This document shows positions 17,812-36,249 of a stretch of 36,249 nt of DNA, piece by piece. Source of the stretch: a virus. The stretch spans positions 1 to 36,249 of IMG/VR virus record IMGVR_UViG_3300022933_000013. The stretch is one strand, 5' to 3'. Made by a program: the position numbers and the translations under genes. Below the pieces are notes generated by a model, which saw only the letters and a list, made by a program, of their open reading frames with translations, was not told the origin of the DNA and made no database searches. How positions within the stretch are numbered: the first letter of the stretch is position 1; each line of letters begins with the position of its first letter.

Positions 17812-17837
17812 GAAAAAAATAATCAGTTAAGCTGATT
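17812..17837 (-). terminator. Hairpin terminator of the major capsid gene
   Basis: AATCAG and CTGATT pair around a 5-base loop (17821-17837), followed on the minus strand by seven T. It overlaps the capsid stop codon. Confidence 0.75.
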
Positions 17838-19269
17838 AAACTGTTGATGAAACTCGAACGATTGATGTTGCGTCAATTACGCCTGTGTTTGTTCTCCAAG
17901 TGGTATTGACACGCACTTGGTTATCCTCACCGACCTCGTGCATTTTGACAGTTACATCACGTTTGATACCAATACCGAATGAGTGTTTTGGCACACAAAT
18001 AATTGCATTATATGCGTTATTTGTTTGTGATTTTTCTTCAACTGCATTACTAACTACTAATTGAACACCCATGAATTGTTCTAATTCGGCTTTTAACCAA
18101 ATGTCGGGTGCTGATCTAGTTGCTAATGATGTTACATTAGTTGAAGTGATTAATTGTCTCCATTGTTGAGGGTGTAAGAAAGCCACTGGCTTAATTCCTC
18201 CACGCAGATATCCTTGATTCTCAAGAAACTCTCTAGCAACTGCGATTGCAGTTTCGTCAAAGACGACAGATGCTACATTACTTGAAGTAATGGTTGCTCC
18301 TGTGTCAGCACGAATCCATAATCCAGGGGTTAAAGTTCCTTCTGCTGATTTGGTGTTCAACATATCGGTTGCTACGAAATCTTCATAACTAGCTGCACTA
18401 CCTTCGACAATAGCTTGCAAAAGATCAAATGGCGAATTTTCTATTTCGTCAAAATCTCCAACAAGATAGACACCTGTAATGGTTGAAGGTGTGACTTCTA
18501 TTGCTGTGAAAGTTTGTGTTGCTTGTGAAGGTGTAGAACCAACAGTTTGTGAACCGTTAGCAGGGATTGTTGTCTTAAAGAATCTTGCTCTGTCCATACC
18601 TGCTTCGATTTTTTTGACTTTAGCAAATTCGAATACAGGTCTAAAAGATAAACCACCTGGTACGATTGCAACGTCAGTATCTAAGTCCTGTGTTGCGTGT
18701 GTGCCAGATATGCTTACTGCTTCTTGTAGTTGTAGAGGAGAAGCTCTGAATGATTCAGTAACTTGTCCTTGTCTATCTTTAGTTTGTTTAGTATTAACGG
18801 ATCTCAAACTTTCCAAATTAATGTCAAATTCGAATTTTCCGTATTTTCTTAAAGATGGAGCCATGTTTTCTGCTACTTGTTTCCAAGAGTGTACACCATC
18901 TTCCAAACCTACTTGTGCAGTTGGTTTCTTTTCTGAAAGAGCCTTTAAGGATTTTTCAATGCTAGCTAGTTTCTTTTCTGTTGCGATTGAAGTATTGGTT
19001 TGACCAATATCTCCAGTCTTATCAGAACCATTTGGTTGACAAACTCCAGAAGTAGGATCAATAGAGTGTCCATCTGGACAGCCTTCTACTTCTTGTTTAT
19101 CACCTACATCTGCTCCTTCACCAGCTAGGTCGCCAATGGTAGAGTCAGCTTTAGGATCACCAAATGCAGATTCTTTTGCTACGCATTTTCCTTGTGATAC
19201 ATCAAAAGATTGTCCTTCTGGACATTCTTTATCGTCAGCTTCTGTTTTTTTGTTACAGTCGCAAGGCAT
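17836..19269 (-). CDS. HK97-fold major capsid protein with Cys-rich N-terminal domain, 477 aa
   Basis: The main shell protein. The C-terminal 320 residues have HK97-type features: an N-arm, a long helix about 290-310 (SPFDLLQAIVEGSAASYEDF), the segment IKPVAFLHPQQWRQLI typical of the P/A domain, and a last strand ending VRVSSTV. The first 120 residues are a delta-domain-like scaffold containing two copies of a Cys motif, C-P-(E/D)-G-x-S-x-D-(x)n-G-x-C at 16-29 and 64-77, then a coiled coil (about 95-115). The protease encoded upstream probably removes this part during maturation. ATG 19269 follows the KTSC gene by 33 bases. The capsid call rests on sequence pattern plus operon position. Confidence 0.85.
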   Translation of the reverse strand: MPCDCNKKTEADDKECPEGQSFDVSQGKCVAKESAFGDPKADSTIGDLAGEGADVGDKQEVEGCPDGHSIDPTSGVCQPNGSDKTGDIGQTNTSIATEKKLASIEKSLKALSEKKPTAQVGLEDGVHSWKQVAENMAPSLRKYGKFEFDINLESLRSVNTKQTKDRQGQVTESFRASPLQLQEAVSISGTHATQDLDTDVAIVPGGLSFRPVFEFAKVKKIEAGMDRARFFKTTIPANGSQTVGSTPSQATQTFTAIEVTPSTITGVYLVGDFDEIENSPFDLLQAIVEGSAASYEDFVATDMLNTKSAEGTLTPGLWIRADTGATITSSNVASVVFDETAIAVAREFLENQGYLRGGIKPVAFLHPQQWRQLITSTNVTSLATRSAPDIWLKAELEQFMGVQLVVSNAVEEKSQTNNAYNAIICVPKHSFGIGIKRDVTVKMHEVGEDNQVRVNTTWRTNTGVIDATSIVRVSSTV

Positions 19270-19302: not shown

Positions 19303-19650
19303 CTAACAATCATGTAATGATTTAATTTCCCTGTTGAAAAATGCTCCCTTACTGTCAGCTCCTTCAAATGAATCAAATAATCTCTCTGATACATTACAAA
19401 AATGATACTTGTTATTGTTTAGTAAAATATCCATTTCCCTACTTTCCCTATCCCACAAGACATTTCCTATAAAACTAGATGAATGAGTAAATGACTTAAA
19501 CTCTGGATTGCCTACTGTGTCAGATTTTTGACCACTATTGGTAGAATCTTCAATTAAATAATGTTCTAACTCTTTCCAATCTTCGTTAAGTTCTTCTGTA
19601 AAACTAAATTCTAGTTTTTTTTTGGGTGTAGTTTTCCACAATCTCCACAT
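19303..19650 (-). CDS. KTSC-domain protein in capsid operon, 115 aa
   Basis: Residues about 54-112 match the KTSC domain: S-S-S-F-I-G-N-V-L-W-D at the start, then M-D-I-L-L, Y-H-F-C-N-V, and A-D-S-K-G-A-F-F-N at the end. KTSC domains are small, often found in viral proteins or next to lysyl-tRNA synthetase-like genes; their function is not established. It begins at ATG 19650, overlapping the protease gene by 40 bp, and precedes the capsid gene, so it may be a capsid accessory or decoration protein. Confidence 0.75.
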   Translation of the reverse strand: MWRLWKTTPKKKLEFSFTEELNEDWKELEHYLIEDSTNSGQKSDTVGNPEFKSFTHSSSFIGNVLWDRESREMDILLNNNKYHFCNVSERLFDSFEGADSKGAFFNREIKSLHDC

Positions 19651-20195
19651 TCTTCAACGTGCAGGTGATCCATGATTTGTTGTTTAAAGTTGATAAAGTC
19701 GGTTGTCTTAACACCTTCTACTTTGGCTACAATATCAGCCTCTAGTTCATGATGGTTACATTCTTCTATGTATTTTTCTATAACTTTGACAGATGTTTCT
19801 GGCACACCAGGCGTTTCTGTTAATGCCAATCCCTCAGGTCTTAACCCAAATGGCATGGCAAAACAATCAGAATTACCGTTACAGATTTCTGTTACTTCTG
19901 TTGGTGTTGCTTCTATGCTAGTAAATAATAATTTGTTTCTGGCTACATTGGCACTTGCTTCATTGGTTATTTCACCTTCATAATATACGGTTTCTTGTGA
20001 TGGGTTATAATGGAAAGTAACTTCACCAATTACATTAGATGGATCATGTTCCCAATTTAACGGAACAGTAACGCCATCAAAACGTTCCAATTCTTGTTTA
20101 GTGTATAGGTTGTTATTTCTGGATATTCTAGGAATTAATGCTACACCTGTAATTTTAGCAGATTCATTAACGGAAGTATAAGCTTGAAGATTCAA
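19611..20195 (-). CDS. Putative prohead maturation protease, 194 aa
   Basis: Layout of an HK97-type prohead protease: an N-terminal strand (SAKITGVALIPRISRNN), EHD with His50 followed by a strand (VIGEVTFHY), Ser93 in LLFTSIEATP, and the LTETPGVPET segment (125-134), which corresponds to the L-V-x-x-P-x-N segment of the family. His50 and Ser93 are the best catalytic candidates. The C-terminal 25 residues contain a CGDCGKLH metal-binding motif, unusual for this family. Start is TTG 20195, because in-frame upstream codons hit a stop at once and a TATA box fits it. It is the first gene of the capsid operon. Confidence 0.65.
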   Translation of the reverse strand: MNLQAYTSVNESAKITGVALIPRISRNNNLYTKQELERFDGVTVPLNWEHDPSNVIGEVTFHYNPSQETVYYEGEITNEASANVARNKLLFTSIEATPTEVTEICNGNSDCFAMPFGLRPEGLALTETPGVPETSVKVIEKYIEECNHHELEADIVAKVEGVKTTDFINFKQQIMDHLHVEECGDCGKLHPKKN

Positions 20196-20230: not shown

Positions 20231-20283
20231 TAGACAAAATGATGTATCTACATTCTTTTTTGTCTAACGATTAAGACGTCTTA
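20231..20283. repeat. Hairpin plus palindrome ahead of the capsid operon
   Basis: Inverted repeat TAGACAAAA (20231-20239) / TTTTGTCTA (20258-20266) encloses a second one, ATGTA (20242-20246) / TACAT (20249-20253). Next to it is a perfect 12-bp palindrome, TAAGACGTCTTA (20272-20283). This 144-base gap between genes otherwise holds no frame over 15 codons. Likely an operator or terminator region controlling capsid expression. Confidence 0.6.
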
Positions 20284-20339
20284 CGCTAGTAATAATATAA
20301 TAAAATAAGTTAAAGTAACCATTAATTAATATTATAAGC

Positions 20340-20435
20340 TTAACGGTTATTTTTTTCACTATTTACAGCATACCACATAACAGCGTTATACTTACCAAAT
20401 TTTAAAAAGTCTATAACGTGTTGGTTTTTTCTCAA
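20340..20435 (-). CDS. Possible small protein, 31 aa
   Basis: TTG 20435 overlaps the previous stop as TTGA, a junction used repeatedly in this genome. The peptide is helical with aromatic residues (WYAV). No ribosome-binding motif close by and no family recognised, so moderate confidence only. Confidence 0.4.
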   Translation of the reverse strand: MRKNQHVIDFLKFGKYNAVMWYAVNSEKNNR

Positions 20436-20531: not shown

Positions 20532-20753
20532 TTATTCACCTTCATGTTCTTTCCATAAAGTACGAAGTTCTCTTGCTAATCTTTCTTCTGCATATTTTGC
20601 AAATAACAAACTTCTTTCTTCTGTTGCTAATCTAGCTTTATGAAAAGCAACTTTTTCTTTGTGTTCTTTAATGCTTTTTCCTGCATTATCTCTAAGTTTT
20701 CTTAGTCTTGAAAGTTCTTTTTCAAAAGCTAATTCTTGTTCTGTTGTATTCAT
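20532..20753 (-). CDS. Charged coiled-coil protein, 73 aa
   Basis: Nearly all helix with Lys/Glu/Arg heptads (3-70), without Cys. A TATA box 26 bases before ATG 20753 and the end of the structured RNA just upstream show that a transcript starts here. Could be a scaffold-like or regulatory protein; no family recognised. Confidence 0.7.
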   Translation of the reverse strand: MNTTEQELAFEKELSRLRKLRDNAGKSIKEHKEKVAFHKARLATEERSLLFAKYAEERLARELRTLWKEHEGE

Positions 20754-20775: not shown

Positions 20776-20783
20776 AATATAAA
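20776..20783 (-). promoter_or_regulatory. TATA box for the coiled-coil gene
   Basis: TTTATATT on the minus strand, centred 26 bases before ATG 20753. Confidence 0.6.
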
Positions 20784-20808
20784 CCAATAAGGTTAAAAAA
20801 AATTAAGT

Positions 20809-20938
20809 AAAAATACCACCTCAATGATAGGAAACAAAACCTATGACGCTCTCACGAAACGTGTCTTGGTGGTAGCCTAAGATGGGTATCTTTTTCAGGT
20901 ATCTAGAATCCACAACTCAAGATATCCCATGACGGCTA
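20809..20938 (-). ncRNA. Candidate structured non-coding RNA, about 130 nt
   Basis: No frame over 15 codons, but dense pairing. Domain A: AGCC (20874-20877 region) pairs with GGCT (20934-20937), and inside it 20882-20890 pairs with 20921-20930 (nine pairs, one bulge). Domain B: a 7-bp stem, 20814-20820 with 20868-20874, encloses two hairpins, ATAGG/CCTAT (20827-20844) and CACG/CGTG (20853-20863), giving a three-way junction. On the minus strand it is preceded by TTTAAATA at 20961-20968, placing a start near 20938, and followed by T5 and T6 runs (20813-20809 and 20800-20795). Promoter, fold and terminator agree. No known RNA family recognised. Confidence 0.6.
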
Positions 20939-20960
20939 TATTATAATGAAAGTTATTCCC

Positions 20961-20968
20961 TATTTAAA
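20961..20968 (-). promoter_or_regulatory. TATA box for the structured RNA
   Basis: TTTAAATA on the minus strand, centred about 26 bases before 20938, the first paired base of the RNA. It lies just after the stop codon of the coiled-coil membrane protein. Confidence 0.5.
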
Positions 20969-20973
20969 GTCTA

Positions 20974-21213
20974 TTAAATTATATTTTGTAATACTTCTAC
21001 CATAGTAAATATGATACCCATACCTGCTATGATGATGTAGAACTTTCTATCCTTGTTTGCTTGTTTCCTCTCTATATCTTTAAAGTGATTGTTCAATTCA
21101 TATTCCACCTTCATTAGACGTTCACACAAACTTTCTATCTTTTCCTCAAAGCCATCTAGTTTGTCCAAGATTCTTTTGGTCATGTCGTCAAATTCTGTCA
21201 TTGGCATTGACAC
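20974..21213 (-). CDS. Coiled-coil membrane protein, XhlA-like layout, 79 aa
   Basis: Residues 8-55 form a charged coiled coil, and 58-78 a membrane helix (YIIIAGMGIIFTMVEVL). This order and size match XhlA-type holin-associated proteins of phages. It overlaps the end of the portal gene by 16 bp. It could take part in lysis or be a small structural membrane protein; the layout is seen, the role is inferred. Confidence 0.6.
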   Translation of the reverse strand: MSMPMTEFDDMTKRILDKLDGFEEKIESLCERLMKVEYELNNHFKDIERKQANKDRKFYIIIAGMGIIFTMVEVLQNII

Positions 21214-22565
21214 CCACGCTTTGTACAGAGTGCGTGTTGGCTCTCCTTACACATCTTGCATTTTTTAATAGGCTTTGCCTTTACCTCTGATATCTGTTTC
21301 ATGTTTTCCTGAATAAATTTCTCTTGTTTAATGTCTTTAGCGTTCTTGGCTATTGTTGCTTGTACGTCTTGATTAGCTTGAATCTCTTTATCATCAGGAA
21401 GTTCCATTCCAGTATTGACTCTTAACCATTCTCTTGACTCACCTTTGGTCATGATACCCTGTGTTGACAAATCCTTAATCTGTGCAACTTCCAACTCTAT
21501 AATGTTCTGTGATGTAAATGCAACATTACATTCTTCCACCTCTGGATCATATCCGTTTTGGATTAGTATGTTGTCAAATAGTTCCACCTTTAGTTTGTTA
21601 GCCAAATATCGTTGATAACCTCTAACTCTTTTCATTACAATGTTATCTGTTGTCTCACTACTTGCTCTGCTTGTAAAGTCACCTGTCATAATATCGTGTG
21701 GGAATTGTGTTCCTAACTCGAATACTTTTTCCAAGTGGTTAATGTAATCTGTGTACTTGCTGTTGCCCTGTGTTTCAAAGAACTCTATTTCAGGTTTAAT
21801 CTTCTGTACTCGTTTATCACCTGGCTTGTACTTTTGCCATCTAACTGCTTCCTTTTCCAAGTATGGATCACTTGCTCCTGGGTATGTGATTGTAGTAATT
21901 GGATAAGCATTATTTAGAATGATGGCTGACATGGCGTCCTCTATTCCCCACATGATTTCTATTAGTGGAGCAGTTGTTCTGTTTCCTATTGTTCTTGGAA
22001 TAGCTAGTGAATAGAATAAAGATTTACCCCATGCTTGTTTTGAATAGTTTGTTAAGTTAAATTCTATAAATTTACCTAGTTTGCCCTCACCTAGTTTGGC
22101 TGTTTGACCATGATTAGTTCTATGCTCATAGTATTGTAATTCACCAAACTCGTTTCTTTTCTTGGATATGATGGTTTGCATATCTACTTCCTCTATACCT
22201 TGTATGTCATTCTCGTCTAATTTCTCTAAGATACTATTGCCTGTGATTAAACAAGTAGTGACCATATTTTCAAACTTGTCATAAAAATTAGAATTTCTTA
22301 TCCAATCGTTTAACACTTCTGTTGCTGTATCTGAATTACAGGTGACGTTCATTTCTGTTCCTGTGATTAGTTCTGAATAAGATGATACTGCTATTTGGAG
22401 TTGTGGTGTTCTGTCGTGATACTTTATCAACTGTTCAAAGGTTACTTGGATAGGTTGTTCACGCTGATAATCTGATCGTACAATTTTGGCTAATGGAATT
22501 TTATTCTCTTGTATTCTATTCTCTTGAATATCATAATTAATTGGGTTTCCTATTGCGTCAATCAT
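21198..22565 (-). CDS. Portal protein with Cys-rich C-terminal tail, 455 aa
   Basis: The dodecameric ring at the unique capsid vertex through which DNA passes. The pattern of SPP1/HK97-type portals is visible: an N-terminal wing, MWGIEDAMSAIILNNAYPI (about 205-223), the clip and stem region with FPHDIMTGDFTSRASSETTDNIV (cited in two parts: 289-298 and 299-311), and the helix VRGYQRYLANKLKVELFDNIL (shown as 316-336). Its last 20 residues (436-455) hold five or more Cys plus His, a metal-binding tail not usual in portals. ATG 22565 overlaps the previous stop (ATGA). Terminase and capsid genes nearby support the call. Confidence 0.85.
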   Translation of the reverse strand: MIDAIGNPINYDIQENRIQENKIPLAKIVRSDYQREQPIQVTFEQLIKYHDRTPQLQIAVSSYSELITGTEMNVTCNSDTATEVLNDWIRNSNFYDKFENMVTTCLITGNSILEKLDENDIQGIEEVDMQTIISKKRNEFGELQYYEHRTNHGQTAKLGEGKLGKFIEFNLTNYSKQAWGKSLFYSLAIPRTIGNRTTAPLIEIMWGIEDAMSAIILNNAYPITTITYPGASDPYLEKEAVRWQKYKPGDKRVQKIKPEIEFFETQGNSKYTDYINHLEKVFELGTQFPHDIMTGDFTSRASSETTDNIVMKRVRGYQRYLANKLKVELFDNILIQNGYDPEVEECNVAFTSQNIIELEVAQIKDLSTQGIMTKGESREWLRVNTGMELPDDKEIQANQDVQATIAKNAKDIKQEKFIQENMKQISEVKAKPIKKCKMCKESQHALCTKRGCQCQ

Positions 22566-23843: not shown

Positions 23844-24099
23844 TGATTATCTTATTAATTACAGAAGTCGGTAACATATCAAGGTCTTTTGATTCCTCTT
23901 TAATCTTGTTAATAATAGCTTCTTGTTCTTTGAATAAATCATAACCTTGTTTTAATTGTTTAAACGCTTTAACATATTCAGCGTATGAATTGGCAAATAA
24001 TGTAGCTAGTGTTTGTTTGCTGTTTCTTCCTATGGTCTTGCCTGTGGCTTTAACTATAAACTCTTGAAGCTTCTCATCATTAGTCATAATGTTACTCAT
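23827..24099 (-). CDS. Hypothetical coiled-coil protein after terminase, 90 aa
   Basis: Helical throughout; a coiled coil is likely at 38-72. It starts at ATG 24099 in an ATGA overlap with the terminase gene, so both are made together. Its position suggests a packaging or head-assembly role, but no family is recognised. Confidence 0.65.
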   Translation of the reverse strand: MSNIMTNDEKLQEFIVKATGKTIGRNSKQTLATLFANSYAEYVKAFKQLKQGYDLFKEQEAIINKIKEESKDLDMLPTSVINKIINDKND

Positions 24100-25517
24100 T
24101 CAAATACCTCAGTATTTATTGATATTCCACCCTTGCTTTTAGGTTTTTCGGTTTCATCTTGCTTGACTAGCCTATCTGACATGATATCATAGTGACCATA
24201 ATCAAACTCTTTCAAATCCCAACAGCACATGATAAAGCAATCTAACACATCTGCGTTTAGTTCTGACTTGTCTATACCTCCTTTTCCATCAAACTGTGCT
24301 GATCTCATCTGTGCCAATAGTTTAGTATGATTTGGGTGTATTCTCACTTTACCATTCTTGACCATCTGGGAGGCGTTGATTGTCATTTTACTTCTTAACG
24401 ATTGCATATTGGCTGATTCGTGATCCCTTATTTGAAGTCCAAAGTTGATAGGTAAAGCAGGGATTCCTCTTTCCTCTAGGTCACGAATAAATCCAGGGTG
24501 TGCTGAATCTATCTTACAGTTGTCATTATATCTGTGAGCCATTTCTTCAATTACATCTAACATGGCACTTGGGCTTGGTCTTGGAAATTCATTTGCTTCC
24601 GTTACATACAATAAATTATCTCTTATTTCCCCCCCTAGTACACCAAAGTTTGACGAGCCAAAAGCAGGATCACCATAACAGCCACCCCTTCCACCTATTA
24701 CATTCAAATCATATTCTTCTATAATACCTTCAATACCCTCAAAGATATCACCACTACCAAATCCATACTTGAGATTGTACTCACGTTCAAAACTTGGAGA
24801 TTTCTTTGCTGTCTCTATATCCTCTGGCTTGAATACTTTGTTTAATCCTATTGTATAATCCATCTGCTTCATTACATAACCATTGTCAGTTTCATCTTCC
24901 ATTCTCTCAAACAATCCCCCTGGCAAGTTGGGTGTTGATATGAGTAAGATATGTGGGTTGGTCTTTGGTATGTATCTTTCTGCTACTGTGCGAGCTTCAT
25001 CTTGGTATCTGTTCGGGAAGAAATCTGCCTCATCAAGCATTACTATCTTTGGGTTAAGTCCTCTGGCAGGTGACAAGTGGTTAGTTGGAAATGCCTCAAT
25101 CCTACAACCGTTCAATATACAAACTGATTCCTTTGTCTTAAATTCGTGATTAAATAATGACTTCATTCTACCAACTACCTTGTTTGTTAGGTCTTGGTTT
25201 GCTCCTGTAATTATTACCCCTGTAACATCAACTTGGGTATCTTTCCATAAATCATCTTTAAGACAGTTCCAGGCTATCCAACGAATTGTCCACTCGGTAA
25301 TTCCAAGACCTGTCGCCTTTTTCACCCATAGTTTCTTATTAGTTTCTAGTATAGATGTTAATTCCTCCTCATAGTCAAAGTATTCTAATTTGTTTGGTAG
25401 TGCTTCCCAAAACTCTTGAAAAGTTAATCCCCTATACTCTGGGAAATCAACAAATTCCTCCTCAAGTTCTTTCTGCTGTTGTTCCCAAACTGGATAAATT
25501 GATACTTCCTTGTCCAT
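24096..25517 (-). CDS. terL: Terminase large subunit (packaging ATPase-nuclease)
   Basis: A 473-residue motor that translocates and cuts viral DNA at the portal. ATPase part: Walker A-like KKATGLGITEW (66-76), Walker B with IVMLDEADFF (158-167; Asp162, Glu163), and coupling motif STPN (194-197). Nuclease part: Asp283 in YGDPAFG, Asp337 in KIDSAHPG, and Asp423/Asp426 in NADVLD, the RNase-H-like acidic cluster. ATG 25517 overlaps the end of the preceding gene by 56 bp, the usual terminase pair order. Full length for the family. Confidence 0.92.
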   Translation of the reverse strand: MDKEVSIYPVWEQQQKELEEEFVDFPEYRGLTFQEFWEALPNKLEYFDYEEELTSILETNKKLWVKKATGLGITEWTIRWIAWNCLKDDLWKDTQVDVTGVIITGANQDLTNKVVGRMKSLFNHEFKTKESVCILNGCRIEAFPTNHLSPARGLNPKIVMLDEADFFPNRYQDEARTVAERYIPKTNPHILLISTPNLPGGLFERMEDETDNGYVMKQMDYTIGLNKVFKPEDIETAKKSPSFEREYNLKYGFGSGDIFEGIEGIIEEYDLNVIGGRGGCYGDPAFGSSNFGVLGGEIRDNLLYVTEANEFPRPSPSAMLDVIEEMAHRYNDNCKIDSAHPGFIRDLEERGIPALPINFGLQIRDHESANMQSLRSKMTINASQMVKNGKVRIHPNHTKLLAQMRSAQFDGKGGIDKSELNADVLDCFIMCCWDLKEFDYGHYDIMSDRLVKQDETEKPKSKGGISINTEVFE

Positions 25518-27562: not shown

Positions 27563-28546
27563 TTAAGATTCAAGTATTTTGACTAAATGTTTAGCAATAT
27601 GCTTCATTAAATTGGGTGGAACTGCTCTCCCTATTCTCTCATATTGTTGTGTATATGTTCCTAATATTTTAAAATCCTCTGGAAAACTGGATATTGCTTT
27701 AAGTTCTTTGATAGTCAATGTCCTGTTTTCTAAGGGGTGATAAATATCAACTGATGTTGTTATAGTAGGACATGGCTTTGTCATTGAGGCTCTACGGTGT
27801 GAAAAATAACTATTGTTTTGATTATACTTACAACATTGTTCACCCTGTTTAGTATAATTTAGATAATATAGAACCCTTTTACTTGTTACTTTTAGTTTTT
27901 CTTTTTCTGCTTCTATTACTGTAATATTTTTTGTTGCTTCCTGAAATGTTATAGGCTTACAGAATGGTTTTGGGTGTGATGGTAGTTTATTCAAATCTTT
28001 TCTTATACCTATTATGATTAATCTTTCCCTGCTTGTTGCTGTTTCAAAATACTGTGCATTAAGCACTTCAACATTTAGATTATAACCTATTTTTTGTAAT
28101 TTAATCAGATAGTTTGTTAGCAGTTCTTTTGCCACACCTAACGTCATACCTTTAACATTTTCTAAAACTATTGCTTTAGGTTTAATTTCAGATATTAATC
28201 TTATCTGCTCATCAAATAAATCATCAACTCTTTGCTCCGTACTTGAATATGATTTAACCTTACCCCATGACCTTTCCCTTTTACCTGCCATAGAAAAACT
28301 AGCACAAGGAGGTGATCCATCAAGGATATCCAACTCGCCTTTTTTTAGTCCAATTAAATCAAGTATCTCTTTGCCTGTTACATCTCTGATATCTTTTTCA
28401 ATTATTGGTGTGCCTGGAAAATTTACCCTGTAACAAATTCTTGCTTCCTCAATAAATTCCAATGAGGCTAATACCTTACACCCTGCTAATTTGTAACCCA
28501 AACTTGATCCACCTACACCTGAAAAGGTTGATACAACTGTTACCAT
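27563..28546 (-). CDS. Cytosine-C5 DNA methyltransferase with Asn-to-Arg change in motif X; predicted Cx-SAM-dependent carboxymethyltransferase
   Basis: 327 residues, Dcm/DNMT fold. Motif I FSGVGGSSLGY (8-18), motif IV GSPPCASFS (77-85) with catalytic Cys81, motif VI ENV (129-131), motif VIII with SRERL (172-176), a short target-recognition region (about 215-270), motif IX LTIKELKAISSFPEDF (about 277-292), and motif X RIGRAVPPNL. In the family motif X is GNxVPP; here Asn is Arg307 (codon AGA, bases 27626-27628). Asn at this place touches the transferred group, and Lys there gives Cx-SAM use in engineered M.MpeI. The residue after Cys81 is Ala rather than the usual Gln. ATG 28546 is preferred over TTG 28567; it overlaps the PP-loop gene by 7 bp. 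The methyltransferase fold is certain; the changed cofactor is inference. Confidence 0.9.
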   Translation of the reverse strand: MVTVVSTFSGVGGSSLGYKLAGCKVLASLEFIEEARICYRVNFPGTPIIEKDIRDVTGKEILDLIGLKKGELDILDGSPPCASFSMAGKRERSWGKVKSYSSTEQRVDDLFDEQIRLISEIKPKAIVLENVKGMTLGVAKELLTNYLIKLQKIGYNLNVEVLNAQYFETATSRERLIIIGIRKDLNKLPSHPKPFCKPITFQEATKNITVIEAEKEKLKVTSKRVLYYLNYTKQGEQCCKYNQNNSYFSHRRASMTKPCPTITTSVDIYHPLENRTLTIKELKAISSFPEDFKILGTYTQQYERIGRAVPPNLMKHIAKHLVKILES

Positions 28547-29343
28547 ATTGTGTTCCAATCCCTGCAAATATCCATTATTCTTGTACGACTCTTAAAATTA
28601 ATTTTTTTATTAGATAATAATGTTTCAAATAATGTGGGTATATTTGCCACTAACTGCAAATTGGAATGTTGTTTTACCTTACCTATTTTTGCAAATTCTT
28701 TAGAATACGCTGTCCTAACATGATGTTTTTGAAATGGTTTATTTACACCATACCAATCAAATTTCATAAAAAAATTAACTATTTCCTTATGTTTCATACC
28801 TATTGATACTAAGATTTTATTATATTCCTGACATAAGTATAGATGTTGATCCATACCATCATTATTAGGTTGATAATGTGTCTTTAAACGATATTCGTCA
28901 AATTTGCTTTTAGGTGTCTTAAAATGAATAGCACAACGTTTAGTTAGTCCATAAAAATCATCAAACCCCATGCCTGTCAATACATATTTTTCTTTTATTT
29001 TTGGATAAACATAGATAAAAGGAAATGCACACTCGAAATTCGTCTTTTTCCTACACTTGTACTTGTTTAATAATGTGAAAAAATCATCATGTAAATTATC
29101 AGTAGGAACAATAATTGTATCTATATCCCACCCAAAAGTGTCAGCAGTTTCTTTGGCTTTATCTGAATCATAAGTAGGTTGATTTTCCAAATGAAATGTA
29201 TAGGCATGAACCTTTTTACCAAGTCTATGAGCTGAAAATGCCACACTTAAACTATCTACACCACCTGATAATAATACTGCAACTTCCTTATCAGGCACTT
29301 CTTTTTCTATAAGTGCTTCCATAATTTTATCAATCTTGGTCAT
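28540..29343 (-). CDS. Asparagine-synthetase-type PP-loop ATPase lacking glutaminase domain
   Basis: 267 residues. ATP-binding PP-loop LLSGGVDSLSV (24-34) and a second motif VLTGMGFDDFYG (121-132), which corresponds to the SGEG(S/A)DE(L/I)FGG motif of asparagine synthetase B. Such enzymes adenylate a carboxylate and then form an amide. The N-terminal glutaminase domain is absent, so it would need free ammonia or another amine. It starts at ATG 29343 in an ATGA overlap with the CmoA-like gene and runs into the methyltransferase gene. Substrate inferred from neighbours: the carboxylate of 5-carboxymethylcytosine, in DNA. Alternatives: a QueC- or sulfur-transfer-type PP-loop enzyme, less likely given the second motif. 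Confidence 0.8.
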   Translation of the reverse strand: MTKIDKIMEALIEKEVPDKEVAVLLSGGVDSLSVAFSAHRLGKKVHAYTFHLENQPTYDSDKAKETADTFGWDIDTIIVPTDNLHDDFFTLLNKYKCRKKTNFECAFPFIYVYPKIKEKYVLTGMGFDDFYGLTKRCAIHFKTPKSKFDEYRLKTHYQPNNDGMDQHLYLCQEYNKILVSIGMKHKEIVNFFMKFDWYGVNKPFQKHHVRTAYSKEFAKIGKVKQHSNLQLVANIPTLFETLLSNKKINFKSRTRIMDICRDWNTIW

Positions 29344-30062
29344 TTAATTGCTATGAATCCTGCAAAATTATACCATTTAAAAATTATGTCATTACAGTAA
29401 AATCCACACTTTCTTAATAATGATTTATTTTCATCTAATGATATTGGAGTCATAATTCCTCGTAAACTCTTTGATTTCTTTTGATTATCAATAGGATTTA
29501 AGCCATTTCTGATTTTCATATCTTGATACAAGTCAATCATTATCTCATTAAATTGGGCGTCAGAACCAACTATTTTTTCTACCATAATTAATGCTCCCCC
29601 TTGACGTAAACCTCGATAAATATTTCTAAGTAACAGTTCACGATTTTCTAAGTTAATGAATTGAAGTGTAAATAATGATATACATAAACTGACAGTATTT
29701 CCAGATAGTGATAAACTATCTAATCCATGATTAAGGTCGGTATTAATTAATTTTACATTATCTATATCCTCTAAATTTTTCTTGGCAACATCTAACATTT
29801 CTTCCGATTCATCTATACCAATAAATTTTAAGTTTTTTCTAGGAGAACTGTTATGAATATTTTTAAGGGTTGTTCCAGTAGATACCCCAATGTCAATAAC
29901 TGTATCATTGTTTCTTAGAAAATAATTAGACAATTCTAATGTCATTCGTTGCACTTCATTGTATAGTGGAACCGATTGTGATACATGATCATCAAAATGT
30001 TCTGCTATATTCTTGGACTTGAATGTCCATACGTCATTATAATCTATTTTCTTTTTGACCAT
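29340..30062 (-). CDS. cmoA-like: CmoA-like carboxy-SAM synthase
   Basis: 240 residues. Class I methyltransferase fold with motif I [12 protein letters not shown]. Segments match E. coli CmoA closely: [12 protein letters not shown] against [32 protein letters not shown] against [33 protein letters not shown] against GLNPGGALVLSEK; and [13 protein letters not shown] against FQCFNFGSLVALK. CmoA converts SAM and prephenate to Cx-SAM for wobble uridine in bacterial tRNA. No CmoB partner is present here, and archaea do not use that tRNA pathway. CmoA Arg199 lies near QKRS; here the aligned segment is QKKS. ATG 30062 is preferred to TTG 30077. Overlaps the ParB-like gene by 26 bp. Confidence 0.8.
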   Translation of the reverse strand: [240 protein letters not shown]

Positions 30063-30555
30063 GTTCACAATCACCAACTATACATCTATGAAAAACATCA
30101 TCTGAAACAGATATCTTGTTATTGGTTTCAGGGATTTCATCTATACTATTATTTAATACACTTTCAAATTTTTCTAATGGTTTACCTAATAATTCAGCAA
30201 AACTGTCCATTCTGTTTGCGTCAAAAATTAACTTAAACTCATCATGGTCTTTTTCTTTATTATGCTCACCCCTTAGTTTGTTCATTAACTGTCTTAATAT
30301 TTTTAAATCAATCTTATCAACATCAATAACATAGGCAGGAATTTTCTTTTTCCCTAATTTTTTATAAATTTTAACTCTATGCTCACCATCAATAACTGCT
30401 AATTTTTTGTTTAATATTACAGGAGCTAAAAACCCAAATTTTTCCATTGTTAATTCTAGGGCTTTTTCTTGCTCATTAGATAATTCATTTGGATTAGTCT
30501 TATCAAACTTAATATCATTGACAATAACACTTGAAATAGCAATTTCTTTTACCAC
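30037..30555 (-). CDS. ParB/sulfiredoxin-like domain protein, 172 aa
   Basis: Residues 5-80 form the ParB N-terminal fold: N-P-N-E-L at 21-25, F-L-A-P-V-I-L-N at 42-49, and IDGEHRVKIYKKLG (55-68) with the GEHR phosphate-binding motif. Such domains bind CTP or act on DNA, and are often encoded with phage DNA-modifying enzymes. A helical region follows, then a Cys/His C-terminus (CIVGDCEHG). GTG 30555 is used because the nearby ATG is out of frame. First gene of the modification operon, with a TATA box 25 bases upstream. Possible roles: sequence-guided loader or regulator of the module. It has no HTH part of true ParB proteins. Confidence 0.75.
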   Translation of the reverse strand: MVKEIAISSVIVNDIKFDKTNPNELSNEQEKALELTMEKFGFLAPVILNKKLAVIDGEHRVKIYKKLGKKKIPAYVIDVDKIDLKILRQLMNKLRGEHNKEKDHDEFKLIFDANRMDSFAELLGKPLEKFESVLNNSIDEIPETNNKISVSDDVFHRCIVGDCEHGQKENRL

Positions 30556-30841: not shown

Positions 30842-31543
30842 TCAACGCCTAATGGCTAACCATAGCCAACGCTTGACAATATAGTAGAAACTAAATCTAT
30901 CCCAAACCCTTTGACCATACTTGACTCTGACTCTTAGGATATCCCTATCAGATAAATCCAAATTATCAACAGAATAATATGGATCCATTATATCACTTCC
31001 ATATTTAGCACCTGAAACATCATGTTTTAACCCTAACGTGTGACCTAGTTCATGGATAAGTACAGCATACAAATTATATGTCTTTAATATGTTATCTGGA
31101 TATGATACATTCTCTACTAGACCTTTTTTGATGGCGTCTTTTCCCTTGATACCCCTCCCTTTTAGATCCCAAATGTATGAAGCATTAAACACTACCTGTC
31201 CTGATACACTACCTTGACCTGGGAAATATGCGTATGCTAGAACAGATGGTCTATCTTTGAAATACTTATCCTCATCTTTTGTTCTGAATCTTATCTCAAT
31301 ATCTGCTTTGGTTTTCCATGCCGATTTGAATTTCAACGGTATCTCAAAGTTCCATGTGGATATTGCTAGATTGATTGCTCGTTTTAATTTTCGTTTGGAT
31401 ATTAATTTTAATGAGTCATGGTATTCTACATCATAAGTTAGTATATCTTTTTCCCACTTGTATTTCCATTCTGTTTGTTCTGATACAAATTCCACTTTGC
31501 CATTGACTTCATTTTGTGCAATAATACAATCGGGGTGGTTCAT
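30842..31543 (-). CDS. Matrixin-like zinc metalloprotease, 233 aa
   Basis: Zinc-binding motif HELGHTLGLKH (164-174) with catalytic Glu165, followed by Asp175 and a Met-turn in DIMDPYYS (Met186): the metzincin/matrixin signature. Also matrixin-like: LAYAYFPGQGSVSGQVVFN (102-120). There is no signal peptide; the C-terminus has a hydrophobic-basic segment (FYYIVKRWLWLAIRR). It lies next to a small membrane protein. In a virus of an archaeon with a protein S-layer and no peptidoglycan, a likely role is cutting the S-layer at exit or entry; the protease call is firm, the target is inference. Confidence 0.85.
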   Translation of the reverse strand: MNHPDCIIAQNEVNGKVEFVSEQTEWKYKWEKDILTYDVEYHDSLKLISKRKLKRAINLAISTWNFEIPLKFKSAWKTKADIEIRFRTKDEDKYFKDRPSVLAYAYFPGQGSVSGQVVFNASYIWDLKGRGIKGKDAIKKGLVENVSYPDNILKTYNLYAVLIHELGHTLGLKHDVSGAKYGSDIMDPYYSVDNLDLSDRDILRVRVKYGQRVWDRFSFYYIVKRWLWLAIRR

Positions 31544-35534: not shown

Positions 35535-35640
35535 TTTTTCTTATTACCCCATACAAACAATCAGTACATAAATCTATGTCGTGAAATAACTTGTTCTTAA
35601 CAAAGTCTTTTTCCTGATGGCATTTCTTACACTTGTTCAT
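35524..35640 (-). CDS. CxxC-CxxC zinc-finger protein following MCM, 38 aa
   Basis: Complete version of the gene cut at the left edge. CKKC (4-7) and CTDC (25-28) with a 17-residue basic/aromatic middle. ATG 35640 overlaps the MCM stop by one base, and ATG 35643 is also possible. Its sequence is identical in both copies over the shared 34 codons, although the MCM genes next to it differ. Confidence 0.65.
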   Translation of the reverse strand: MNKCKKCHQEKDFVKNKLFHDIDLCTDCLYGVIRKNEE

Positions 35641-36249
35641 CATTGTCTTTTTAGTACACCCACCTTTGGCTCATATAACCACCCTTTGACTTTTCTAGCC
35701 TCAATGTATCTTAATACCATGTCGTCACTATAAAACATTTTTTGATTTTCTAATAATTCACTAGCTAAATCTTTAAGGTCAACGTGTCCTTCTTTGTTTT
35801 CTTTTGCCAAAGTTCTAAAACAATCCTCAAAATATACTTCCTTGTTAGTTGAATGACCTCTTAGATCCATTTGAGATATGCCCTTTGATACGTTCATGCC
35901 AAGAGTACATAGACATTCCTGGTAGAATTTAATCACATCTTCTACTATTTCTGTGTCAATTTCTGTCTTGAATAACATCTTAGCCCATGCTTCACATAGT
36001 CTTTGTATTCCTTCCATCTGTCTTGTTTGAATTTGTAGTGAGCCATCTTGTTGTTCTATCTGGGTAAATTCTACAAATCTATTGATGAGTAATTCTTCTG
36101 CTTCTTGATTGAATATTGGTTTAAGTTTTCTTAGATAGTTTAACAAACCTTGAACCCATTTAGGATTAGCAACCTTATCAACATCACCTCTCTTGTTCTT
36201 TGAGATATGTGCCATCTTTGCCCTAATCTCATTCTCACCTGTATCATGC
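35537..36249. repeat. Right copy of diverged terminal repeat
   Basis: Counterpart of bases 1-713. Identity is perfect for the first 118 bases (35537-35654), then falls as the MCM frame begins to differ. If the ends are joined there, the genome is about 35,536 bp long and circular or circularly permuted. Confidence 0.9.
35640..36249 (-). CDS. mcm: Second MCM helicase copy, C-terminal part, cut by window edge
   Basis: The open frame runs through the window edge; the visible 203 residues correspond to about 503-705 of the left MCM. Over the last 191 residues I count 22 differences, about 88% identity, and most are conservative. Walker motifs lie beyond the edge. This may be the same gene of a related strain joined by assembly, or a real paralogue. 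Confidence 0.85.
   Translation of the reverse strand, partial: HDTGENEIRAKMAHISKNKRGDVDKVANPKWVQGLLNYLRKLKPIFNQEAEELLINRFVEFTQIEQQDGSLQIQTRQMEGIQRLCEAWAKMLFKTEIDTEIVEDVIKFYQECLCTLGMNVSKGISQMDLRGHSTNKEVYFEDCFRTLAKENKEGHVDLKDLASELLENQKMFYSDDMVLRYIEARKVKGWLYEPKVGVLKRQ

Follow-up and report, generated by a model that had tools for sequence, protein, structure and literature searches.

A modular structured RNA encoded among the head genes of a probable archaeal tailed virus

Between two head-region genes of the virus record IMGVR_UViG_3300022933_000013, the 36,249 bases of which were analyzed as a whole (hereafter the window), lies an interval that does not appear to encode a protein. The minus-strand order of the surrounding genes is terminase, portal, a 79-aa protein gene, the interval in question, a 73-aa protein gene, head maturation protease, and major head protein (Table 1). 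What does this interval encode? An earlier note, made from the sequence alone, had read positions 20795-20968 as a structured RNA gene with its own promoter and terminator. Comparison of relatives shows that a structured RNA (RNA1) is indeed encoded on the minus strand, from 20938 to about 20809 or 20795; its transcription is inferred.

The virus itself is likely to be a tailed virus of ammonia-oxidizing archaea, an assignment inferred from its gene content. It encodes an MCM helicase, and its terminase is 44% identical over 82% of its length to that of the Nitrososphaera provirus Pro-Nvie1, with no other match among 50,697 phage records. Several further properties of the genome can be mentioned. 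The two ends of the record (1-713 and 35537-36249) are 86.5% identical without gaps (617/713), and the C-terminal part of MCM is encoded in each of them; probably the record, though classed as linear, wraps a genome of ~35.5 kb with a variant overlap. An AT-rich inverted repeat (CCATTAATTAAGCTTAAAAGCTTAATGGT) is present in two copies, before the MCM gene (2218-2246) and between the 73-aa gene and RNA2 (20319-20347), and a similar hairpin is found at the same place in relatives. A matrixin-type metalloprotease (Peptidase_M10, E = 2.5e-26), here in an archaeal virus, is encoded at 30842-31543 (minus strand), and a cluster of cytosine DNA methylase, Asn-synthase/QueC-like protein, and methyltransferase genes (27563-30077, minus strand) suggests DNA or RNA modification.

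Evidence for the RNA comes from covariation. The portal gene was used to gather relatives (41 related loci), and in most of the close ones the RNA1 interval is kept downstream of the portal. No protein frame is present within it: the sole ORF comprises 30 aa, and relatives carry indels of 2-3 nt. In the three-way junction, 12 of the 17 base pairs have changes on both sides among 16 distinct relatives, and 99.3% of the alignment cells are paired, compared to at most 50% with the partners slid; the covariation score is 0.607, versus 0.05-0.07 for slid partners and 0.189 for shuffled ones. When both domains are considered together (14 distinct relatives), 12/32 pairs are doubly changed and 96.9% are paired. 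The P1 helix illustrates this well, with ACCACC/GGUGGU replaced by AUCAAACC/GGUUUGAU and GAUUGACC/GGUCAAUC among relatives. At the same time, the junction strands AAGA (20864-20867) and UCAUUGA (20821-20827) are invariant over the 16 sequences, and the unchanging letters can be written as ACC-AAGA, CA, and UCAUUGA-GGU. The non-Watson-Crick cells in the two alignments (A2 and A3) are G-U in 13 and 17 cases and A-C in none; since G-U cells occur and A-C cells never do, the RNA is read from the minus strand. Folding energy, on the other hand, cannot serve as proof of RNA1: its z scores are not significant (whole interval, -0.56; predicted transcript, -1.20; junction, -2.02), the plus strand scores -2.2, and it is the comparison of relatives that constitutes the proof.

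Thus, the claim of a minus-strand structured RNA without a protein frame held, as did the two folds described by the earlier note, i.e., a long stem closed by AGCC/GGCT (UAGCC/GGCUA here) and a three-way junction with two hairpins closed by 7 bp (6-7 bp here). The RNA system is larger than that note saw. Its modules recur elsewhere, and a second RNA is present.

Table 1. Positions of the genes, promoter elements, and RNA modules in the window
Feature	Position	Strand	Remarks
Terminase gene	24096-25517	-	Large subunit matches phrog_2
Portal protein gene	21198-22565	-	phrog_9232; 455 aa
79-aa coiled-coil/membrane protein gene	20974-21213	-	phrog_2990; upstream of RNA1
TATA box of the RNA1 promoter, TTTAAATA	20961-20968	-	Fixed spacing in relatives, unrelated viruses, and leaderless genes
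RNA1	20795-20938	-	Predicted noncoding transcript of 130-144 nt; covariation, kept downstream of the portal in the virus group, no ORF; 5' end ~20938, 3' end at T5 or T8
Module A (domain 1)	20873-20938	-	Bulged stem; 4 covarying pairs in the inner helix
Module A, closing stem	20934-20938 with 20873-20877	-	UAGCC/GGCUA
Module A, internal loop	20930-20933 facing 20878-20882	-	GUCA facing UCUUA
Module A, inner bulged helix	20919-20929/20883-20892	-
Module C, GAGUUGUGGAUUCUAGAUACCUGAAA	20893-20918	-	26-mer in the apex of module A; small covarying apical stem; same 26-mer elsewhere
Three-way junction (domain 2)	20815-20873	-	Two hairpins; 12/17 pairs doubly changed
Junction closing helix P1	20868-20873 with 20815-20820	-	6-7 bp
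P2 hairpin	20846-20862	-	One-base bulge, GNRA tetraloop (GUGA; GCGA in L009); 5/6 pairs covary
P3 hairpin	20828-20843	-	Stem UAGG/CCUA; 3/4 pairs covary; first pair CG/UA/GC
T5 run, possible terminator	20809-20813	-	Oligo-T; T-rich in relatives, not strictly conserved
T8 run, possible second terminator	20795-20802	-	Seen in the sequence
TATA box of the next gene, TTTATATT	20776-20783	-	30 nt before the ATG
73-aa protein gene, next after RNA1	20532-20753	-
RNA2	20231-20289	-	Further structured element, a 5' hairpin followed by the module B hairpin (20233-20264 by model); upstream of the protease gene
Head maturation protease gene	19611-20195	-	phrog_7015
Major head protein gene	17836-19269	-

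The promoter of RNA1 can be placed by its geometry. The TTTAAATA box is kept in relatives, while the spacer after it varies, and the distance from the TATA box to the first RNA base is 28-30 nt in all four sub-lineages, three of which have a quite different 5' domain. Four genes of the window genome, including those of the major head protein and the 73-aa protein, have a TATA box 29-31 nt before the ATG, i.e., are leaderless. Because the spacing in front of RNA1 equals that of these leaderless genes, its start is predicted at ~20938. The same holds for RNAs containing module A (see below): 22 of the 34 distinct members have a TATA box at this type of spacing versus 0.6 expected from shuffles, and most of the remaining ones have a TATA-like variant at the same place, as judged by eye. 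The 3' end is less certain. In archaea, a poly-U stretch alone suffices for termination (PMC7289017), and the RNA ends in relatives are T-rich; however, several of them have only T3-T4, which leaves the 3' end of RNA1 uncertain. No transcript data are available, and both ends are inferred from the TATA spacing and the T runs. The earlier note had placed the box 26 bases before the first paired base, which holds when counted from the box centre (30 nt from its first base), and its claim of an own promoter is supported by a TATA distance that is fixed both within the window's group and among unrelated viruses. Its T5/T6 runs failed in detail, the runs being T5 and T8, and its terminator rests on weaker ground. 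As the gene behind RNA1 has its own TATA box, read-through of RNA1 is not needed for its expression.

The RNA is modular, its modules being combined in different orders, and pattern and model scans found them in contigs of dozens of other archaeal viruses. The module B hairpin of RNA2 has the core AAAGAAYGUNGAUACRUCAU (an AAAGA/UCAU hairpin). A scan for this core returned 57 stretches, ~30 of them outside the window's virus group, and the module covaries with a score of 0.616 compared to 0.06-0.15 for slid partners (31 sequences); two matches (L161 and L183) look like chance. In several module-B contigs, the core is preceded by GUCAGGGA..ACC..GGUANCCCUCUUA, which corresponds to the GUCA-GGG...CCC-UCUUA frame of domain 1. 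Scanning for this frame revealed module A in 55 viral contigs. The closing stems of modules A and B were not included in the search patterns, and the module A closing stem, lying outside its pattern, covaries in 6/6 pairs. Module C also changes place: it is nested in module A in the window, and in L195, L201, and L236 the identical 26-mer follows module A as a hairpin of its own; L206 has it with one change. Other contigs have module A followed by module B (L160, L163, L166, L173, L180, and others), whereas RNA2 consists of a different 5' hairpin and then module B. In L027, L032, and L034, whose portals are 75-77% identical, the junction persists, with a small hairpin in place of the 5' domain. 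The position of RNA2 also varies (before the protease gene in the window, before the portal gene in L032). In L201, L202, and L236, the RNA gene is immediately followed by another one, which has a TATA box of its own.

The RNA1 junction and module B have an AA-GA/UC-A frame in common, and the junction could conceivably be an elaborated form of module B, an inference only; the junction itself is missing in viruses with modules A and B. At the apex of module C, the loop CUAG is palindromic, as is the CGCG found in its place in L015 (5499-5630). Loop-loop dimers via this apex may be envisaged, with the reservation that the loop change rests on one sequence. A likeness of module C to the 790 loop of small-subunit rRNA was rejected, as L015 and L007 change the letters in question and keep the stem. 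As a separate observation, the modular RNA genes of contigs L160-L241 (e.g., L163 3948-4043, L236, and L201) form a large family; they have TATA boxes, some lie in tandem, and further 3' modules (CGUUCU..CAGGUCG.. and AACGUUGCAACG..) can be recognized in them.

In other viruses, these RNAs are placed beside the packaging genes. Among 45 profiled records with module A, a portal or terminase was found in 41 (the terminases of L160 and L240 were identified separately), and in 38 of these one of the two genes has the RNA on its 5' side at a distance of no more than 2 kb: the RNA is divergent from the portal in 25, ahead of the portal in 2, and ahead of the terminase in 11. G037, G059, and G056 are the exceptions. 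Where both genes were found and the RNA is beside the terminase, the portal is 26-32 kb away, and the reverse is also true. Many of the records are related, so that the 38 are not independent events; among records of at least 30 kb, the count is 13 of 17. In 31 of the 45 records, the portal belongs to phrog_18178; portals of this family have 620-720 aa and resemble those of haloarchaeal viruses. The same RNA loops thus accompany both these portals and the 455-aa phrog_9232 portal of the window. No RNA copy was detectable in the searched pieces of viruses with 55-66% identical portals, the records of which are partial. Distant relatives (L084-L108) are without the RNA; ahead of the protease gene they conserve a TTAATTCTCTTTATATA-like element instead, probably a terminator plus a TATA box.

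Searches against known families support the earlier suggestion of a new RNA. None of the 4227 Rfam models matched at the gathering threshold, and at E<=10 only three weak, unrelated matches appeared, none of them a pRNA. BLAST of the modules against the 50,697 phage records gave no meaningful match (T4-like matches had E = 8). A degenerate junction pattern matched three times in 84,980 genomes of cellular species, all judged to be chance (bacterial, with low model scores), and the same loose pattern gave only chance matches in viral contigs beyond the known group. A weak junction match in L089 was discarded since it lies inside an ORF. The cellular scan covered the junction only and not modules A-C, so a host relative is not excluded. 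A term search of two papers, on archaeal tailed viruses and on thaumarchaeal mobile elements, found no mention of a noncoding RNA, and no description of structured noncoding RNAs of archaeal tailed viruses was found in the literature searched (subscription papers were outside the search).

What might such an RNA do? The reading we favor, and would defend no more strongly than its negation, is an RNA acting in trans by binding a conserved factor, probably one of the host. RNA1, a member of a new family of modular noncoding RNAs in archaeal tailed viruses, would then be an independent viral RNA gene of ~130 nt, with its own TATA promoter served by an archaeal RNA polymerase of the host type and with an oligo-T end. 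Each module is a helix from which an unvarying internal loop, or a junction, is presented. Module A has GUC/CUUA at this place and module C has GAGUUGU/CUGAAA; the junction and module B share AA-GA/UC-A. Because these loops are fixed while the stems change freely, they are read as putative docking sites of a protein or RNP that is itself conserved among hosts or viruses. The occurrence of the same loops across different portal families makes a viral structural protein a poor candidate for this partner and a host factor a better one. The RNA may act in trans in the late phase, as a decoy or a scaffold. Structure, strand, promoter geometry, modularity, and placement are established; transcription, partner, timing, and effect are inferred, no partner having been identified. 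Moreover, the conservation of loops across unrelated viruses might partly reflect recent module exchange, the link to portal and terminase would also fit a role in packaging or late-gene control, and the hosts of the other module-carrying viruses are not established. That a mosaic RNA keeps its loops constant across differing capsid machinery, and lies next to the portal or terminase gene, points to a common target, either of the host or of the assembly pathway.

Regulation of viral genes, either in cis (as a leader, antitermination, or 3'-end element) or by antisense pairing, is the alternative that survives best and remains possible. It is favored by the location of RNA1 between operons of the head cluster, by the RNA directly before the protease gene in L032, and by RNAs before the terminase or portal operon in several viruses. 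However, a cis-acting leader or riboswitch should reside in the 5' UTR of the gene it regulates, which is not the case here, the order being different in L032, and behind RNA1 the window has a separate TATA box for the next gene. The head-gene regulation proposed by the earlier note is therefore not favored in cis. The relocation of RNA2 also speaks against a regulator, and antisense seeds would not be expected to combine variable stems with fixed, structured loops.

Less probable is an RNA of packaging or head assembly that binds the portal or prohead and the terminase, resembling phi29 pRNA and of independent origin. This idea, also raised earlier, has been neither demonstrated nor ruled out. 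Its best support is the proximity to portal or terminase (38/41); a three-way junction of similar size and a self-complementary module C loop, which would permit loop-loop dimers, agree with it as well. Against it, the change from CUAG to CGCG is seen in one sequence only, and no Rfam match was obtained even at E = 10. The constant loops next to differing portals are the reverse of what is seen in pRNAs. The best arguments against are the lack of a detectable copy in relatives with 55-66% identical portals (partial records) and the ordinary TerL (phrog_2); besides, the TerL in L208 has the nuclease domain Terminase_6C. A bolder version, in which the modular RNA is a working part of packaging or head assembly in many archaeal tailed viruses, with modules exchanged and independently of phi29 pRNA, is likewise doubtful.

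A self-cleaving ribozyme or riboswitch-like element, suggested by the invariant three-way junction with a GNRA hairpin, is very improbable in view of the independent promoter, the absence of a fixed downstream gene, and the lack of any match to Rfam ribozyme or riboswitch models; the hammerhead core (CUGANGA and GAAA) was rejected specifically, as the junction strands AAGAC, CA, and UCAUUGA do not fit it. A DNA-level element (origin, packaging site, or attachment site), to which inverted repeats and the association with packaging genes might point, can be all but dismissed given the G-U and never A-C cells, the TATA box at fixed spacing, and the GNRA tetraloop change from GUGA to GCGA.

Among known systems, phi29 pRNA is a close comparison. 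This phage RNA is also small, is about as long as RNA1, and likewise has a three-way junction and two hairpins (covarying in RNA1); the RNA1 family often lies beside portal or terminase. The pRNA forms a ring through loop-loop pairing between molecules; in the RNA1 family, a comparable self-association may be imagined from the palindromic CUAG apex and its single change to CGCG. Unlike pRNA, the family shows no sequence or model match, is modular, has an archaeal promoter, and is missing from some close tailed relatives, and the window encodes a classical TerL matching an archaeal provirus rather than a phi29-type packaging ATPase. While pRNAs share only about 12% of their sequence (PMC5340915), the RNA1 family is characterized by fixed loops with variable partners and not by variable sequence. 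The 6S/late-leader RNA of lambda is a small RNA from a promoter just before the late genes, a situation similar to that of RNA1; however, the genes downstream of RNA1 have their own promoters, and in RNA1 it is the structure that is conserved. GOLLD and ROOL are structured RNAs represented by Rfam families (PMC12286853) that were likewise found by comparative genomics, with their function not known at discovery, but they are much larger single RNAs having neither sequence nor structure in common with RNA1. Adenovirus VA RNA and EBV EBER, of eukaryotic DNA viruses, are compact folded RNAs that each have a promoter of their own and an oligo-T end and seem to work by binding proteins. RNA1 resembles them in its predicted organization, with ends that are inferred and T runs that vary among relatives, and differs in belonging to archaeal viruses, in the TATA promoter for the archaeal polymerase, in its exchangeable modules, and in having no known partner. 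RNA1 and its relatives form a new class of modular RNA that matches no Rfam family, and its mechanism may be a variant of a known principle, that of a decoy or a packaging RNA.
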